Shown here piece by piece: positions 11,912-23,039 of a stretch of DNA of 32,045 nucleotides. The stretch comes from Acetobacteraceae bacterium (GTDB lineage: Bacteria; Pseudomonadota; Alphaproteobacteria; Acetobacterales; Acetobacteraceae). Below the pieces are notes generated by a model. The model did no database searches and was not told the origin of the DNA. It was given only the letters and a program-made list of their open reading frames with translations. The stretch's first letter is position 1; every line of letters starts with the position of its first letter. The translations under genes were made by a program, and so were the position numbers. Location: positions 1 through 32,045 of the forward strand of contig DAIDIQ010000080.1 in assembly GCA_027459285.1 (NCBI GenBank), written 5' to 3'.

Positions 11912-14900
11912 GCCGGCCTGCCTTCAAGTGAGGGGAGCGTGCGTGGTCGGCGCCGCAGGCGGCTCAGCCACATATACATGGCGGGTGTCGTAAACAGGCT
12001 CAGGGCCTGGCTCACCGTCAGCCCGCCCACGAGCGCAAGCCCCAGTGGCCGGCGCAGCGCCGCGCCCACGCCACCCATCAGCAGCAGCGGCAGGGCGGCA
12101 AGCAGGGTGGCGGCCGTGGTCATCAAAATCGGCCGCAGGCGCTCGGCGCAGGCGGCTTCCAGCGCCACCCGGCAAGCGGCGCCGGCACGCTCGCCGCGCC
12201 GCGCCGCGTCCACGATCAAAATCGCGTTTTTCTGGCTTATCCCGATCAAAAGAATAATCCCCACCAGCGCCACCAGGCTCAGCATGGTGCCGCTCAGCCA
12301 GAACGCCAGCAGCGCGCCACTGCCGGCCGATGGCACGGTAGAAAGCACGATCAGCGGGTCGAGCAGGCTTTCATAGAAAATTCCGAGCACGACAAATCCG
12401 GCCAGCAGCGCCGCCAGCACGGCGGCCATCTGGCGCGCGCGGCCGGGCGCGGCCGCGTCGTCGCCACCAAGCGTGCCATGCAGGCTTGGTGGCATGCGCA
12501 ATCCGGCAACCGCCGCCGCAATGGCGCGCCGCGCCCCGGCAAGGGTTTTCCCCCGGCCGAGATTGAAGGAAATCGTCACCGCCGGCAGGCCGCCATCATG
12601 GTTCACCGCCACCATGGCGGCCGCCTCGCGCATCCGCGTGACCGCGCCGAGCGGCACCAGCGTATCGGCGCCGAAGGCAACCGGCAGCGCGCCGGCCAGC
12701 GGCGTGCCGGGCACGGGCGGGGTAATGCCGGCGGGCAGCGGGGCATGCGCCCGCGCCACGTAAAGCCGGTCGAGTGCCGCCGGCGTGCGGCTGAATGCCG
12801 GCGCCAGCGTCATGACCAGCTGATAGGCATCGCGCGGACCATAAAGTGTCGCGATCTGGCGCTGGCCGTACGCATCGTCGAGGGTCTCATCGATCACCGC
12901 CGGGTCGAGCCCGGCGCGCGCGGCGCTCGCGCGGTCCAGTACCAGCCGCACCGCCCGCCCGCCCGGCGCGAAATCGGAGGTCACATCCTCGAGGCCCGGC
13001 ACCGCCCGCATCGTCGCCAGCAGGCGCGGCGCCCATTGCGCCAGCAGGTCCAGCCGGTCGGCGCGCAGCGTATAGGCAAAGGCCGCCGGGCCTTCGCGCG
13101 CGCTCACCCGCAAATCCTGCGCGGATTTCAGGTAAAGCCGCGCGCCGGTCACCGCCGCCAGCCTCGGCCGCAACCGCGCCATCACCGCCTCGGCCGAAAC
13201 CGCGCGCGCCCGCGGCGGCTTGAGGCTCGCGAACAGATAGCCTTCATTGGCGGCGCGCCCCCCGGTATAGGCCACCACCGAGGCCACCGCCGGGTCGGCC
13301 TGCACGATGCGGGAAAACCGCAACAGCTTGTCGCGCAGCGCCGTGAAGGAAATCGCCTCGTCACCGCGCAGGCTGCCAATCAGCCGCCCGGTATCCTGGC
13401 GTGGAAAGAATTCCCGCGGCAAGGTGCCGAGCGCATAGGCGCTGAAGCCGAGGCACGCCAGCAGCACGGCGCCGGCCAGCGCGGAATGGTCGAGCCCCCA
13501 TCCCAGGCCGCGCCGATAGGCCCGCGCGAGCCAGGTGGCGGCCGCGCCCGCCGGCCGCCCAGGGGCAAAGCCGGCCGCGCCCGCGCCGAGACGCTGCTGG
13601 CAGGCAACCGGCGTCAGCGTCACCGCCACCAGAAACGAAATCGCCACCGCCGCCGCCAGCGTCATCGCGAATTCATGCAGCAACCGCCCGGCCACGCCCG
13701 GCATCAGCAGCAGCGGCACGAAAACCGCCAGCAGCGCCAGCGTCATGGCCAGAATGGCGGGACCGGTTTGCGCAAGCCCGGCCGTCACCGCCCGCGCCGC
13801 CGGCACCCCGGCCTCGAGCCGTTGCGCCACCGCCTCCATCACCACCACGGTGTCGTCCACCACGAATCCGGTAGCCAGGGTCAAGGCCATCAGCGACAGC
13901 GTGTCGAGGCCATAATTCATCAGATACAGAACCGCGAGGCTGCCCAGCAGCGAAACCCCGATCGCCATCGCCGGCACCACCACCAGCCCCGGCAGCCGCA
14001 GAAACAGGAACACCACCCCCACCACCAGCAGCACCGAAAGGCCGAGCGTGCGTATTCCCTCCGCGAGCGATGCGCGGATGGTGGCGCTGTCATCCGCCAT
14101 CACCCGCACCGTCACCGCCTGTGGCAGCCCGGCCACCAGCGCGGGCAGGCGCGCGCGCACGCGCCGCGCCGCGGCCACGATATTCGCGCCCGGCTCACGG
14201 TAAATCAGCAGCAGCACCGCCGGGGTCGAGCCGGCAAACCCCGCGCGCCGCACATCCTCCACCCCGTTCACCACCCGCGCCACATCGCCAAGCCGCACCG
14301 CGGCGCCGTTGTGATAAGCAATCACCACCGAGCGGAAATCCGCCGCGCGGCGCGGGCGGTGCGCGAGCGTGAGCGAAACCGCCCTCGCCCCGGTCGAAAA
14401 TCCGCCCAGCGGCCGCACCGCGCTGTTCGCCACCAGCGTCTGGCGCAGGCTCTCAAGCCCTATCCCGCGCGAGAACAGCGCCGCCGGATCGAGCTCGACC
14501 CGCACGGCGGGAATCCCGCCGCCGGTAATATCCACCAGCCCCACCCCGGCAATCCGGGAAAGTCCGGTCTGCAACGCCACCGCCGCGGTCTCATACAGGC
14601 GCTGTGGCGTCACCCGGTCGGATTGCAGCGCCAGAATGAGCATCGGCGCTTCGGCCGGGTTCACCTTGCGATAGGTCGGGTTGAAGCGCAGTTGCGCGGG
14701 CAAATCCGCAAGCGCCGCACTGATTGCCGCCTGCACGTCGCGCGCGGCGCCGTCAATCGCGCGGTCCAGGCCGAATTCCAGCGTAATCCGGGTGCCGCCG
14801 GTCACGCTTTCCGAGGTCATCTGGCGCAAATCGGCAATCTGTCCCAATTGCCGCTCCAGCGGCGTGGCCAGGCTCGCGGCCACGGTCCGCGCCGCCGCGC

Positions 14901-15057
14901 CGGGTAATTTGGCCTGCACCAACAGGGTCGGAAACGCGACGCGCGGCAGCGGCGCCACCGGCAGGTGCAGCGCCGCCGCCACCCCCGCCAGCGCAAGCCC
15001 CGCGCCAAGCAACCGCGTGGCCACCGGGTGGCGCAGCGCCAGGCGCCAAAGGCTCAT
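11908..15057 (-). CDS. RND efflux permease (HAE1/MdtC-like), pump 2
   Basis: 1049 aa, ATPLERQLGQIADLRQMTS, TLATGFVVDDTVVVMEAV, duplicated RND architecture, C-terminal MTTAATLLAALPLLL. ATGA overlap with both neighbours. Confidence 0.95.
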   Translation of the reverse strand: MSLWRLALRHPVATRLLGAGLALAGVAAALHLPVAPLPRVAFPTLLVQAKLPGAAARTVAASLATPLERQLGQIADLRQMTSESVTGGTRITLEFGLDRAIDGAARDVQAAISAALADLPAQLRFNPTYRKVNPAEAPMLILALQSDRVTPQRLYETAAVALQTGLSRIAGVGLVDITGGGIPAVRVELDPAALFSRGIGLESLRQTLVANSAVRPLGGFSTGARAVSLTLAHRPRRAADFRSVVIAYHNGAAVRLGDVARVVNGVEDVRRAGFAGSTPAVLLLIYREPGANIVAAARRVRARLPALVAGLPQAVTVRVMADDSATIRASLAEGIRTLGLSVLLVVGVVFLFLRLPGLVVVPAMAIGVSLLGSLAVLYLMNYGLDTLSLMALTLATGFVVDDTVVVMEAVAQRLEAGVPAARAVTAGLAQTGPAILAMTLALLAVFVPLLLMPGVAGRLLHEFAMTLAAAVAISFLVAVTLTPVACQQRLGAGAAGFAPGRPAGAAATWLARAYRRGLGWGLDHSALAGAVLLACLGFSAYALGTLPREFFPRQDTGRLIGSLRGDEAISFTALRDKLLRFSRIVQADPAVASVVAYTGGRAANEGYLFASLKPPRARAVSAEAVMARLRPRLAAVTGARLYLKSAQDLRVSAREGPAAFAYTLRADRLDLLAQWAPRLLATMRAVPGLEDVTSDFAPGGRAVRLVLDRASAARAGLDPAVIDETLDDAYGQRQIATLYGPRDAYQLVMTLAPAFSRTPAALDRLYVARAHAPLPAGITPPVPGTPLAGALPVAFGADTLVPLGAVTRMREAAAMVAVNHDGGLPAVTISFNLGRGKTLAGARRAIAAAVAGLRMPPSLHGTLGGDDAAAPGRARQMAAVLAALLAGFVVLGIFYESLLDPLIVLSTVPSAGSGALLAFWLSGTMLSLVALVGIILLIGISQKNAILIVDAARRGERAGAACRVALEAACAERLRPILMTTAATLLAALPLLLMGGVGAALRRPLGLALVGGLTVSQALSLFTTPAMYMWLSRLRRRPRTLPSLEGRPA

Positions 15058-18000
15058 CCCGCCGCGCCCTGCCAGAAGCCGCGCCGGCGCGCGCGCCGCC
15101 GCCCCAGCCGGTCAACCGCGAGATAAATCACCGGTGTCGTGAACAAAGTCAGCGCCTGGCTGACGATCAGGCCGCCGACGATGGCGATGCCCAGCGGCCG
15201 GCGCAGTTCGGCGCCGCTGCCCTCGGCCAGCGCCAGCGGCAGCGCGGCAAACAGCGCCGCCAGGCTCGTCATCAGTATCGGCCGCAACCGCAGCTTTGCC
15301 GCCCGGTGAATTGCCGCCTGCGGGCTCATCCCGGCCTCGCGCTCGGCCACCAGCGCGAAATCCACCATCATGATCGCGTTTTTCTTCACGATCCCGATCA
15401 GCAGCACGATCCCGATCACCCCCATGATGCCCAGCGGCTCGCCGGCCAGCCACAACGCAACCAGCGCGCCGATCGCGGCCGATGGCAGAGTCGATAATAT
15501 CGTCACCGGGTGCAGAAAACTCTCATACAGAGAGCCGAGCACGATATACATGACAATGATTGCCGCCAGCACGAGCGAAATCTCGCTCGCCCCTATCCGC
15601 GTCATCGCGGCGGCCCCGCCGGTGAAGGCCCACGTCACGCCGGGCGGCGGCGGCATCGCGGCCACGGTGCGCCGGATCGCCGCCATCGCCTCGCTGAGCG
15701 CGTGCCCGGCCCCGACATTGAACGAAATCACCGTGGCCGGCTCCTGGTTCACCCGCATCAGGGCCAGCTTGCCGCGCACAGTCGCCTCGCTCGCCACCGC
15801 GGCCAGCGGCACCGCCCCGCCTTGCCCCGCGGCCGAGGGCAGATACACCGCGCCGAGCCCGGCGCCGTCGGTATCCGCGGTCAAAATCACCCGATATTGG
15901 CTCGCGCGCGTGAAAATCGTCGCGGCAATGCGCTCGCCGAACATGTCGTACAGCACATTGTCCACCAAGGCCGGGGAAATACCAAGCCGCGCCGCGCTCG
16001 CCCGGTCCACGGCAAGGCGCCGGAACCGCCCCGCCGCCGGCAGAAAATCGGCCGGGTCGGCCAGTTGCGGCAGTCGCGCCAGAGCCCCGGTCAGCCGCGC
16101 CACGTAGCGGTCCAGCGCCGCGCGGTCGCCGCCGCTCACCCTCAGTTGATAAAGGCCCGGCGTCACCAGCGTATCCACCGTCAGCGCCTGCAAGGGGTGC
16201 AGGCGGAGCGTCAGGCCCGGCAGGCCGGCCGCCGCCTGCCGCAACTCGGCCATCACCCGCGCCGCCCCCGGTCGCCGGCCGCGCGGCGCGAGGTCGATCA
16301 GCAGCCGCCCCTGGCTCAGGCTCGGATTGTCACCGTCCACGCCAATGAAGCTGGTCAGTCGCCGCACATGCCGGTCGGCCAGAAGTCGCGCCGCCAACCG
16401 GTCCTGCAACGCCGCCATGGACGTGAACGAAATATCCGGCGCCGCCTCGGTCACGCCAATGAGCGTCCCGGTATCCTGCACGGGGAATAGGCGGTGGCGC
16501 GCGACCAGCCCCAGCAATGGCGCAGCCAGCGTCATCGCCACCGCCGCCGCCAGCACCGGGCGCTGATGCGCGAACACCCAGCGCAGCGCCCGGTCATAAG
16601 CCGCAAGCCAGAAAGCCGTGGCCCTCGGCTCCGCGCCGGAGGCCGCCGGCGCGGCGCTCAGCCGCGCGCACAGCATCGGCACCAGCGAGAGGGAAACCAG
16701 CGCCGAAATCAGGATCGTCGCGGCCAGGGTCATCGCGAATTCCCTGAACATCCGACCGATCACGTCCTGCATGAACAGCAGCGGTATCAGAACCGCCACC
16801 AGCGATACCGTGAGCGACACGATCGTGAAGCCGATCTGCCGCGCCCCCTGCAACGCCGCCGCGCGCGGGGCCAGGCCGCCTTCCGCCAGCCGGGTTATAT
16901 TCTCGATCATGACAATCGCGTCATCGACCACGAAGCCGGTCGCGATCGTCATCGCCATCACCGACAACGTATCGATCCCGTAGCCCGCCAGATAGAGAAA
17001 GCCGAGCGTCGCGGCGAGCGATATCGGCACGCTCAGCGCCGGTATCAGCGCAACGAGCGGCCGGCGCAGAAACAGCAGCAGCACGAGCCCGACCAGCCCC
17101 ACCGCCGCCGCCAGTTCGAAGCCCAATTGCCGGATCGCGGCCCGGATCGCCACCGTCCGGTCGCTGGCAATCGTCAGCCGAACCCCGGCCGGCAGCAACG
17201 GACGCAGCCGCGCCAGGCTCGCGCTCGTCCGCGCGGCCACGCGTATCACATTCGCCCCGGGCTCGCGGTACAGCGTCAGCAGAACGGCCGGCGTGCGGTT
17301 CAGCCAGGCGGCCCGGGCCGGGTCCTCGGGGCCGCGCCAGACCCGCGCCACATCGCCCAGCCGCACCGCCGCGTTATTGCGAAAGGCAATTACCGAAGCG
17401 CGATAAACCTTGGCCGACACGATCTGGTCCGTCGCATCCACCCCGTAGGCGCGCATATTCCCTTGCAACATGCCTTTCGGCGCGTTGCTGTTGATGCCGG
17501 CAATCGCCAGGCGCAACGCCTCCATCGACAGGCCCTGGCTCGCGAGCTTGCGCGGGTCGGCCGCCACCCGGATCGCCGGTCGCTGCGCGCCGCTGATCTG
17601 CACATGCCCCATGCCCGGCACCTCCGCGAGGCGCGGCAGCAATTCGCGCTCCGCCACCTCGGTCAGCGCCATGCGCGTGAGCGTCGGGGAGGTCAGGGCC
17701 AGGGTCATCACCGGCGCGTCGGCCGGGTTGATTTTGGTGTAAACCGGCGGCTCGGGCAGGTCGGGCGGCAACAGGGTCGCCGCCTGGTTGATCGCCGCCT
17801 GCACATCCTGCTCGGCGATGTCGAGCCGCGTCGCGAGCGAGAATTGCAGCGTGATCACCGAGGCGCCACCGCCACTCACCGCGGTCATCTGCGTCAGCCC
17901 CGGTATCAGCCCCAACTGGCGCTCCAGCGGCGCGGTCACGGTTGCCTGCATCACATCGGCCGAGGCGCCGGGCATGAAGCTGCGCACCTGCATCGCCGGG

Positions 18001-18125
18001 TAGGTAATATCCGGCAGCGCCGAGACCGGCAGCAGCGGAAGGCAGGCAAGCCCGCCGAGAAACAAGGCCGCCATCAGCAGGGCAGTGCCGATCGGCCTCG
18101 TTATGAACGGCGCCGACAGGCTCAT
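15054..18125 (-). CDS. RND efflux permease (HAE1/MdtB-like), pump 1
   Basis: Internal ATG at 18125 gives MSLSAPFITRPIGTALLMAALFLGGLACLPLLPVSALPDITYP. TIATGFVVDDAIVMIENI, MTSLAALFAALPLAL. The ATG overlaps the adaptor stop (ATGA). Confidence 0.95.
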   Translation of the reverse strand: MSLSAPFITRPIGTALLMAALFLGGLACLPLLPVSALPDITYPAMQVRSFMPGASADVMQATVTAPLERQLGLIPGLTQMTAVSGGGASVITLQFSLATRLDIAEQDVQAAINQAATLLPPDLPEPPVYTKINPADAPVMTLALTSPTLTRMALTEVAERELLPRLAEVPGMGHVQISGAQRPAIRVAADPRKLASQGLSMEALRLAIAGINSNAPKGMLQGNMRAYGVDATDQIVSAKVYRASVIAFRNNAAVRLGDVARVWRGPEDPARAAWLNRTPAVLLTLYREPGANVIRVAARTSASLARLRPLLPAGVRLTIASDRTVAIRAAIRQLGFELAAAVGLVGLVLLLFLRRPLVALIPALSVPISLAATLGFLYLAGYGIDTLSVMAMTIATGFVVDDAIVMIENITRLAEGGLAPRAAALQGARQIGFTIVSLTVSLVAVLIPLLFMQDVIGRMFREFAMTLAATILISALVSLSLVPMLCARLSAAPAASGAEPRATAFWLAAYDRALRWVFAHQRPVLAAAVAMTLAAPLLGLVARHRLFPVQDTGTLIGVTEAAPDISFTSMAALQDRLAARLLADRHVRRLTSFIGVDGDNPSLSQGRLLIDLAPRGRRPGAARVMAELRQAAAGLPGLTLRLHPLQALTVDTLVTPGLYQLRVSGGDRAALDRYVARLTGALARLPQLADPADFLPAAGRFRRLAVDRASAARLGISPALVDNVLYDMFGERIAATIFTRASQYRVILTADTDGAGLGAVYLPSAAGQGGAVPLAAVASEATVRGKLALMRVNQEPATVISFNVGAGHALSEAMAAIRRTVAAMPPPPGVTWAFTGGAAAMTRIGASEISLVLAAIIVMYIVLGSLYESFLHPVTILSTLPSAAIGALVALWLAGEPLGIMGVIGIVLLIGIVKKNAIMMVDFALVAEREAGMSPQAAIHRAAKLRLRPILMTSLAALFAALPLALAEGSGAELRRPLGIAIVGGLIVSQALTLFTTPVIYLAVDRLGRRRARRRGFWQGAAG

Positions 18126-21591: not shown

Positions 21592-21737
21592 GATCCATCC
21601 CCCCCCGATACGCTTGGGTTCGGACATGAAACTACGCCGGCAAACCTTACGGCAGAATGATCTATCGCAATCCGCCGCCTCAACCTGTCGCAAGTTTCGC
21701 AAGCCCTGGTTAGGGCCTCGGCAGGACAATCAATCCG

Positions 21738-21827
21738 GTGCCGGCGCTTACCGGCGTGATCAGCGATGGTAGTACTATCGCACCCATAGCGCATTTGCAT
21801 CATGACGGCGCGGCACCGACGGTGTAG
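21738..21827 (+). pseudogene. Degenerate fragment of a paralogue of the downstream HAF-repeat-like gene
   Basis: Ungapped comparison with 22098-22187 (exact 360-nt offset, same frame) gives 63/90 identical bases, including the exact 20-mer ACGGCGCGGCACCGACGGTG (21805-21824 and 22165-22184). Translation VPALTGVISDGSTIAPIAHLHHDGAAPTV* versus GTLLAGVVVNGGTVTTIPHLYQYGAAPTVQ. Confidence 0.75.
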
Positions 21828-21917
21828 CCTGGAAAATGGAAGAGCCTTGTGGGTTTCCTGGCAGCCGGGCAGACCGGGCTGCCAACCAGATATACGCATT
21901 TCCCAGAAAGGGTAATC

Positions 21918-22958
21918 ATGTCGTTCATCAAATCCATTGCCTTGGCCACGGCGCTGTCTACGCTGTCGGTGGCGCCTTATGCGTTCGCCCAGACCACGTT
22001 CACCAGCCAACCCATCGTGATCGGCAAGCACGCCAACGTGCAGGCCGTGAGCATCAATGATTCCGGCGCCTATGCCGCGAATGTCTATGCCTACGGCGGC
22101 ACGCTGCTTGCCGGTGTCGTCGTCAATGGCGGCACCGTCACCACCATACCGCATCTATATCAGTACGGCGCGGCACCGACGGTGCAGGCGATCGATAATA
22201 ATGGTGATATTCTCGGTTACGAGACAGAGGGCCTGTTCGCGGTTCCGCACATGTATTTGATCCGCAATGGCGTGCTCGACCGGCGCTACAATATCGTGCT
22301 GGTCGGCAGCTTTGGCGGGCAACCGGTGCAGCCAAACCCGATCGGGTTTGCGGATGGCCGGCTGATTTTCTACACCGAGGTGGTCAGCTTCACGGCGCCG
22401 ACCGACCCGAGCTTCGGCATTCCCTCGCATCTTTTTCATTCGCCGATGTATGATCAGTTCCAGACCGCCCGCAGCATCAACAAAGCTGGCGTCGTAGCCG
22501 GCAATGATTACGGGCTTTCCGGCAATCACACCGTGTTCTTCGGCCGGTATCCGAACTTTACCCAATTGCTGCCGCCCGGCGCGGTCTCGGCTGGTGGCGG
22601 CTATGTGAACGACAAAAACGAGGTCGCCGGGTCCTATGTGGATGCCGCCGGCGTGCCGCACGGGTTTGTCTATCAGAACGGCGCCTATACCAGCTTCGAC
22701 ATGCCGACAAAGGCGAGAAAAGTGACCGTGACCGCGATCAGCGATACCGGGCGGGTTGCCGGCACCTACGTTTCGGGGTCGGGTGGCAAGCAATTTGGCT
22801 TTCTCTATAACGGCACCACCGTCAGCAGCTTTGGCACGTTTTCGGGCTTCGACAACGCGACCGTTGCCTTGAACAACAATAATCAGTTGTTGCTGGCAGT
22901 GCAAAACGGCGCCGATTGGCGGTCCTATCTGGTGACCTGCCAGGGCTCGGGCTGCTGA
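21918..22958 (+). CDS. Secreted HAF-repeat-like protein of unknown function
   Basis: Signal peptide MSFIKSIALATALSTLSVAPYAFA|QTT. Repeated units such as NDKNEVAGSYVDAAGVPHGFVYQNGAYTSFDMP and SDTGRVAGTYVSGSGGKQFGFLYNGTTVSSF. AGAAAGGG ribosome-binding-like sequence before ATG 21918. Confidence 0.8.
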   Translation: MSFIKSIALATALSTLSVAPYAFAQTTFTSQPIVIGKHANVQAVSINDSGAYAANVYAYGGTLLAGVVVNGGTVTTIPHLYQYGAAPTVQAIDNNGDILGYETEGLFAVPHMYLIRNGVLDRRYNIVLVGSFGGQPVQPNPIGFADGRLIFYTEVVSFTAPTDPSFGIPSHLFHSPMYDQFQTARSINKAGVVAGNDYGLSGNHTVFFGRYPNFTQLLPPGAVSAGGGYVNDKNEVAGSYVDAAGVPHGFVYQNGAYTSFDMPTKARKVTVTAISDTGRVAGTYVSGSGGKQFGFLYNGTTVSSFGTFSGFDNATVALNNNNQLLLAVQNGADWRSYLVTCQGSGC

Positions 22959-23006
22959 GATCTGCGCGCGACCGGTTTTTACTCACCAGTCGAGAAACTA
23001 TCGCTC

Positions 23007-23039
23007 ATGCCAACGGTCAGAAAGAATGACCGTTGGCAT
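23007..23039. terminator. Perfect 13-bp hairpin overlapping the 3' end of the OPT gene
   Basis: ATGCCAACGGTCA-GAAAGAA-TGACCGTTGGCAT between convergent genes; no adjacent T-run. Confidence 0.55.

Follow-up and report, generated by a model that had tools for sequence, protein, structure and literature searches.

Organization of the HAF-like locus

The window, by which we mean the whole 32,045-nt stretch of DNA analyzed here, carries a gene for a 346-aa HAF-like protein, preceded in the same low-GC block by a short stretch homologous to part of that gene. The features of the locus are as follows.

21610-23016, no strand: low-GC block (GC 55-61%) of spacer, fragment, gene, and tail
21738-21827, plus strand: fragment with homology to gene codons 61-89 (63/90 identical, no gaps; core 21746-21827)
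21805-21824, plus strand: exact 20-mer ACGGCGCGGCACCGACGGTG, common to 22165-22184
21918-22958, plus strand: gene for a HAF-like, secreted protein of 346 aa, predicted to be beta-propeller-like (from the orthologue, the HAF_rpt model, and Foldseek)
22098-22187, plus strand: homologous segment inside the intact gene, encoding predicted blade strands 3 and 4 and the loop to the next
23007-23039, no strand: REP-like palindrome 3' of the HAF-like gene; one likewise lies 3' of the congener orthologue

The N-terminus of the 346-aa product, read directly, is a hydrophobic, signal-like stretch. No Pfam family matched the product over its cut-off, and against the HAF repeat model (NCBIfam TIGR02913, HAF_rpt) it reached 13.9 bits, under the cut-off of 22.65. 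We call the gene HAF-like because an orthologue from a congener, 72% identical to the protein, passes that cut-off (23.9 bits); a distant full-length homologue from another genus of the family passes as well (35 bits). It is through these two homologues that the protein resembles HAF repeat proteins, from which its own score sets it apart. An AlphaFold model made from two sequences is beta-rich and of moderate confidence (pLDDT 68.6, and about 78-88 around the 22098-22187 segment). The PDB neighbours of the model found with Foldseek are beta-propellers, with TM-scores so low that they indicate fold class only. The HAF-like protein is secreted and, as modelled, probably propeller-shaped, and its residues 61-89 would form the last two strands (63-70 and 73-76) of a four-stranded unit together with the loop into the next (88-92).

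The low-GC block lies between a response regulator gene (70% GC) and an OPT transporter gene (68%), in a window that is 68% GC overall, and it was probably acquired or moved as one unit. In the congener, the orthologue has a ClC channel gene accompanied by a small ORF on one side and an MFS gene on the other, and the OPT gene is followed by genes that we recognized from sequence as fmt- and def-like, with no HAF gene. Because the context of the orthologue differs in this way, the congener offers no intact paralogue and no ancestral site without the gene. Comparison of the DNA upstream of the two orthologues gave no significant similarity, and the fragment is absent upstream of the congener orthologue.

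Several other repeats and palindromes were observed. The REP-like palindrome just 3' of the HAF-like gene has the form CCAACGGTCA(6-8 nt)TGACCGTTGG and belongs to a family of dispersed extragenic palindromes; sites were also seen in G000 (contig 79, 14189-14309; contig 115, 1023-1050) and G001 (contig 91, 24231-24257), at a few further places in the genome itself, and at about 22 in G013, another genome from this family, where most have the form CCAACGGTCATTCTTTATGGCCGTTGG. A stable hairpin, GGCAGCC...GGCTGCC (21858-21892; -20.4 kcal/mol), lies between the fragment and the start of the HAF-like gene and has no T-run after it. A 79-nt direct repeat (1348-1426 and 1442-1520; score 43, offset 94), lying in a non-coding-looking spacer and containing internal palindromes, is stronger than the repeat formed by the HAF fragment. 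Long, diverged direct repeats (11948-14964 and 15097-18032; offsets of about 3.07-3.15 kb) fall within two adjacent minus-strand ORFs of 1049 and 1073 aa, which are evidently tandem paralogues and probably RND pump genes.

A truncated relative of codons 61-89 upstream of the gene

The original prediction had described 21738-21827 as a gap-free match to 22098-22187 (63 of 90 bases, at an offset of exactly 360 nt and in the frame of the gene) that includes an exact 20-mer, and alignment and shuffling bore this out. The detectable core spans 21746-21827 (73% identical), and beyond the 90-bp repeat identity is at background immediately on both sides. Ungapped alignment of the spacer to the gene (+1/-1) scored 38, and 500 dinucleotide-preserving shuffles gave at most 15 (mean 11.0, sd 1.2); thus, where shuffled sequence scoring equally well and nothing related aligning had been named as grounds for doubt, the reverse was found. 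When the fragment was searched against the whole genome, the gene segment was its sole significant match besides itself (E 5e-7), and at the protein level the intergenic DNA was matched by the genome's own HAF-like protein (E 3e-7) and by the congener orthologue (E 6e-7). With these scores chance similarity, which no observation favours and to which we give a negligible probability, is ruled out, and the similarity between fragment and gene is true homology. The fragment is open only in the reading frame of the gene. It retains 28 of the 346 codons, lacks the signal peptide, and has a stop at its edge.

The sequence had further been proposed to be an old tandem paralogue reduced to a stub. The homology, the register, and the present state as a stub all agree with that proposal; the full paralogue itself was not found at the locus or anywhere else in this genome, nor in the single congener examined, whose one orthologue occupies a different place. 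Among 36 genomes no closer relative of the fragment was found beyond the gene and the congener orthologue, in a search with a 37-aa query that has little power, and none was found on plasmids, phages, or viral contigs. The 308-nt spacer contains no further convincing piece of a HAF gene. Two weak candidates from it were taken as noise: a match of 21670-21729 to the congener gene (E 0.007), which is out of order, gapped, and unseen with the genome's own gene, and a match to a G169 protein (E 0.011), which falls on the fragment but involves a part of the protein that does not correspond to it.

The assembly is a draft in 300 contigs, in which a strain variant of the gene might have been joined in front of it. 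Such an artefact appears very unlikely: the exact word common to the two segments is just 20 bases long, the fragment is unique and sits within a unique spacer, and the assembly contains no second variant of the gene.

The exact 20-mer had been read as a possible trace of gene conversion. A 20-base run of identity is mildly unusual for this alignment (P 0.005-0.007 by shuffling), and silent differences at codons for conserved residues number five of eight before the run and none of six within it (Fisher P about 0.03). The run covers only six codons, however, and is partly conserved at the protein level, its GAAP portion being conserved in the orthologue. It hints weakly at a possible conversion or recombination edge. 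The view that a TAG had replaced the CAG just after the 20-mer is uncertain, because the resemblance of TAG to CAG may consist of two bases matching by chance at the edge of the homology.

Substitution pattern of the fragment

Mismatches between fragment and gene are distributed 15:3:9 over the three codon positions, dominated by the first; a sequence strongly conserved as protein would be expected to show its excess at the third. By the NG86 method, dN is 0.34 and dS 0.49, a ratio of 0.7 from a short sequence; between the gene and its orthologue the ratio is 0.35 over the same stretch and 0.17 overall. When changes were polarised with the orthologue, 19 fell on the branch of the fragment (4 of them at ambiguous sites where the ancestor was set to the base of the gene) and 7 on that of the gene. 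The higher ratio (0.7 against 0.17) and the larger number of changes (19 against 7) indicate relaxed constraint on the fragment. The fragment has several residues (A, I, I, and D) in common with the orthologue at positions that have changed in the gene, and it is therefore not a very recent copy.

The original prediction had taken several synonymous differences as a sign that the fragment once evolved as protein, and proposed dN/dS on the aligned codons as a check. The ratio obtained speaks for relaxed constraint and does not show that the fragment evolved as protein. In neutral simulations with 19 changes, the synonymous codons (5, against a mean of 3.5; P 0.27) matched neutral decay, so the data do not carry the claim; this count, the residue identity, the BLOSUM sum, and the absence of stops were all ordinary (P 0.22-0.78). 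Only the second codon position departed from neutrality, with fewer changes in the fragment than simulated (P 0.015), which hints at past constraint and at a possible former coding phase.

Origin and meaning of the fragment

We consider it very probable that the fragment is what remains of either a whole or a partial HAF copy. Our preferred reading, to which we give slightly better than an even chance, is that it is the non-functional remnant of a whole second HAF-like copy that stood head to tail before the present gene. The HAF-like gene would have been duplicated head to tail, the upstream copy would have lost function, deletions would then have stripped all but about 28 codons (61-89) of it, and the remaining stub would have drifted by base substitution. 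The analysis demonstrates the homology of the fragment, its register with the gene, the lack of other copies, its gap-free divergence, and its excess of changes over the intact gene; we infer that a complete, tandem copy was lost and that deletions trimmed it on both sides. We place a whole paralogue pruned by deletion first because the family holds such tandem pairs. On contig 47 of G407, from another genus of the family, two HAF genes that are 65% identical lie head to tail about 200 nt apart. This pair shows that such duplications occur, and it is the intact form of the arrangement proposed for the ancestor; it differs in that both copies are intact and in belonging to another HAF subfamily and locus. 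Also in favour of a whole copy are a homology score far over the shuffles, on the same strand and in the one open frame of the fragment, the relaxed constraint on a copy that is not recent, and the hint of a coding phase in the second-position deficit. Against it, no relative examined has an intact paralogue at the locus, the spacer holds no other recognisable HAF piece, two independent trims are required, and most substitution statistics match neutral decay from birth.

In a rival account, a single event, either a partial tandem duplication or an ectopic insertion, placed upstream no more than the region of codons 61-89, possibly along with some 5' sequence that has since disappeared; this copy was never a gene and has undergone neutral decay throughout its existence. 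We put this short of an even chance but nearly as probable as a whole copy, and it accounts for the data almost as well. A single event is enough, fewer than a whole copy needs; the edges of the homology are sharp; no other gene remnants were found nearby; and the simulated neutral measures fit. Against it stand the second-position deficit (P 0.015) and the persistence of 90 bases without a gap over about 19 changes, which has a probability of 0.06-0.39 for the indel rates assumed.

A functional element, either a 29-aa leader ORF (GTG at 21738 to TAG at 21827) or a structured 5' region of the HAF-like gene under selection, is improbable. The 29-codon frame is open from its GTG, two local hairpins are present (21763-21781 and within 21858-21892), and the leader folds a little more stably than its shuffled versions do (z -1.8). 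Function is nonetheless unlikely because the fragment is absent from the orthologue locus and its changes, with dN/dS near 0.7, look close to neutral; nor did the 36 genomes yield a relative beyond the gene and the orthologue. Equally hard to credit is a more elaborate version, in which a leader ORF or hairpin built from a piece of the gene controls the HAF-like gene downstream and still exchanges sequence with it through the 20-mer.

Returning to a relic of a duplicated HAF-like gene, the fragment and the gene probably arrived together in one low-GC segment, so decay may have started before they reached this site. The fragment can be explained without any function and, under either main origin, is ordinary gene debris. 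Pseudogene relics in intergenic DNA have been surveyed across 64 prokaryote genomes (PMC522871). The present case resembles such relics in being a disabled, truncated copy that lies in a spacer while an intact homologue persists in the genome, and it differs in being shorter than annotation usually calls and in lying directly before its intact relative, in its frame. Were the fragment functional after all, it would be a gene fragment recruited as the leader of its own gene. The case also carries a caution, in that a few synonymous differences over 29 codons cannot distinguish what was once a gene from a piece that was simply copied. Overall, the fragment appears to offer a small, well-bounded example of the pruning of duplicated repeat-protein genes.
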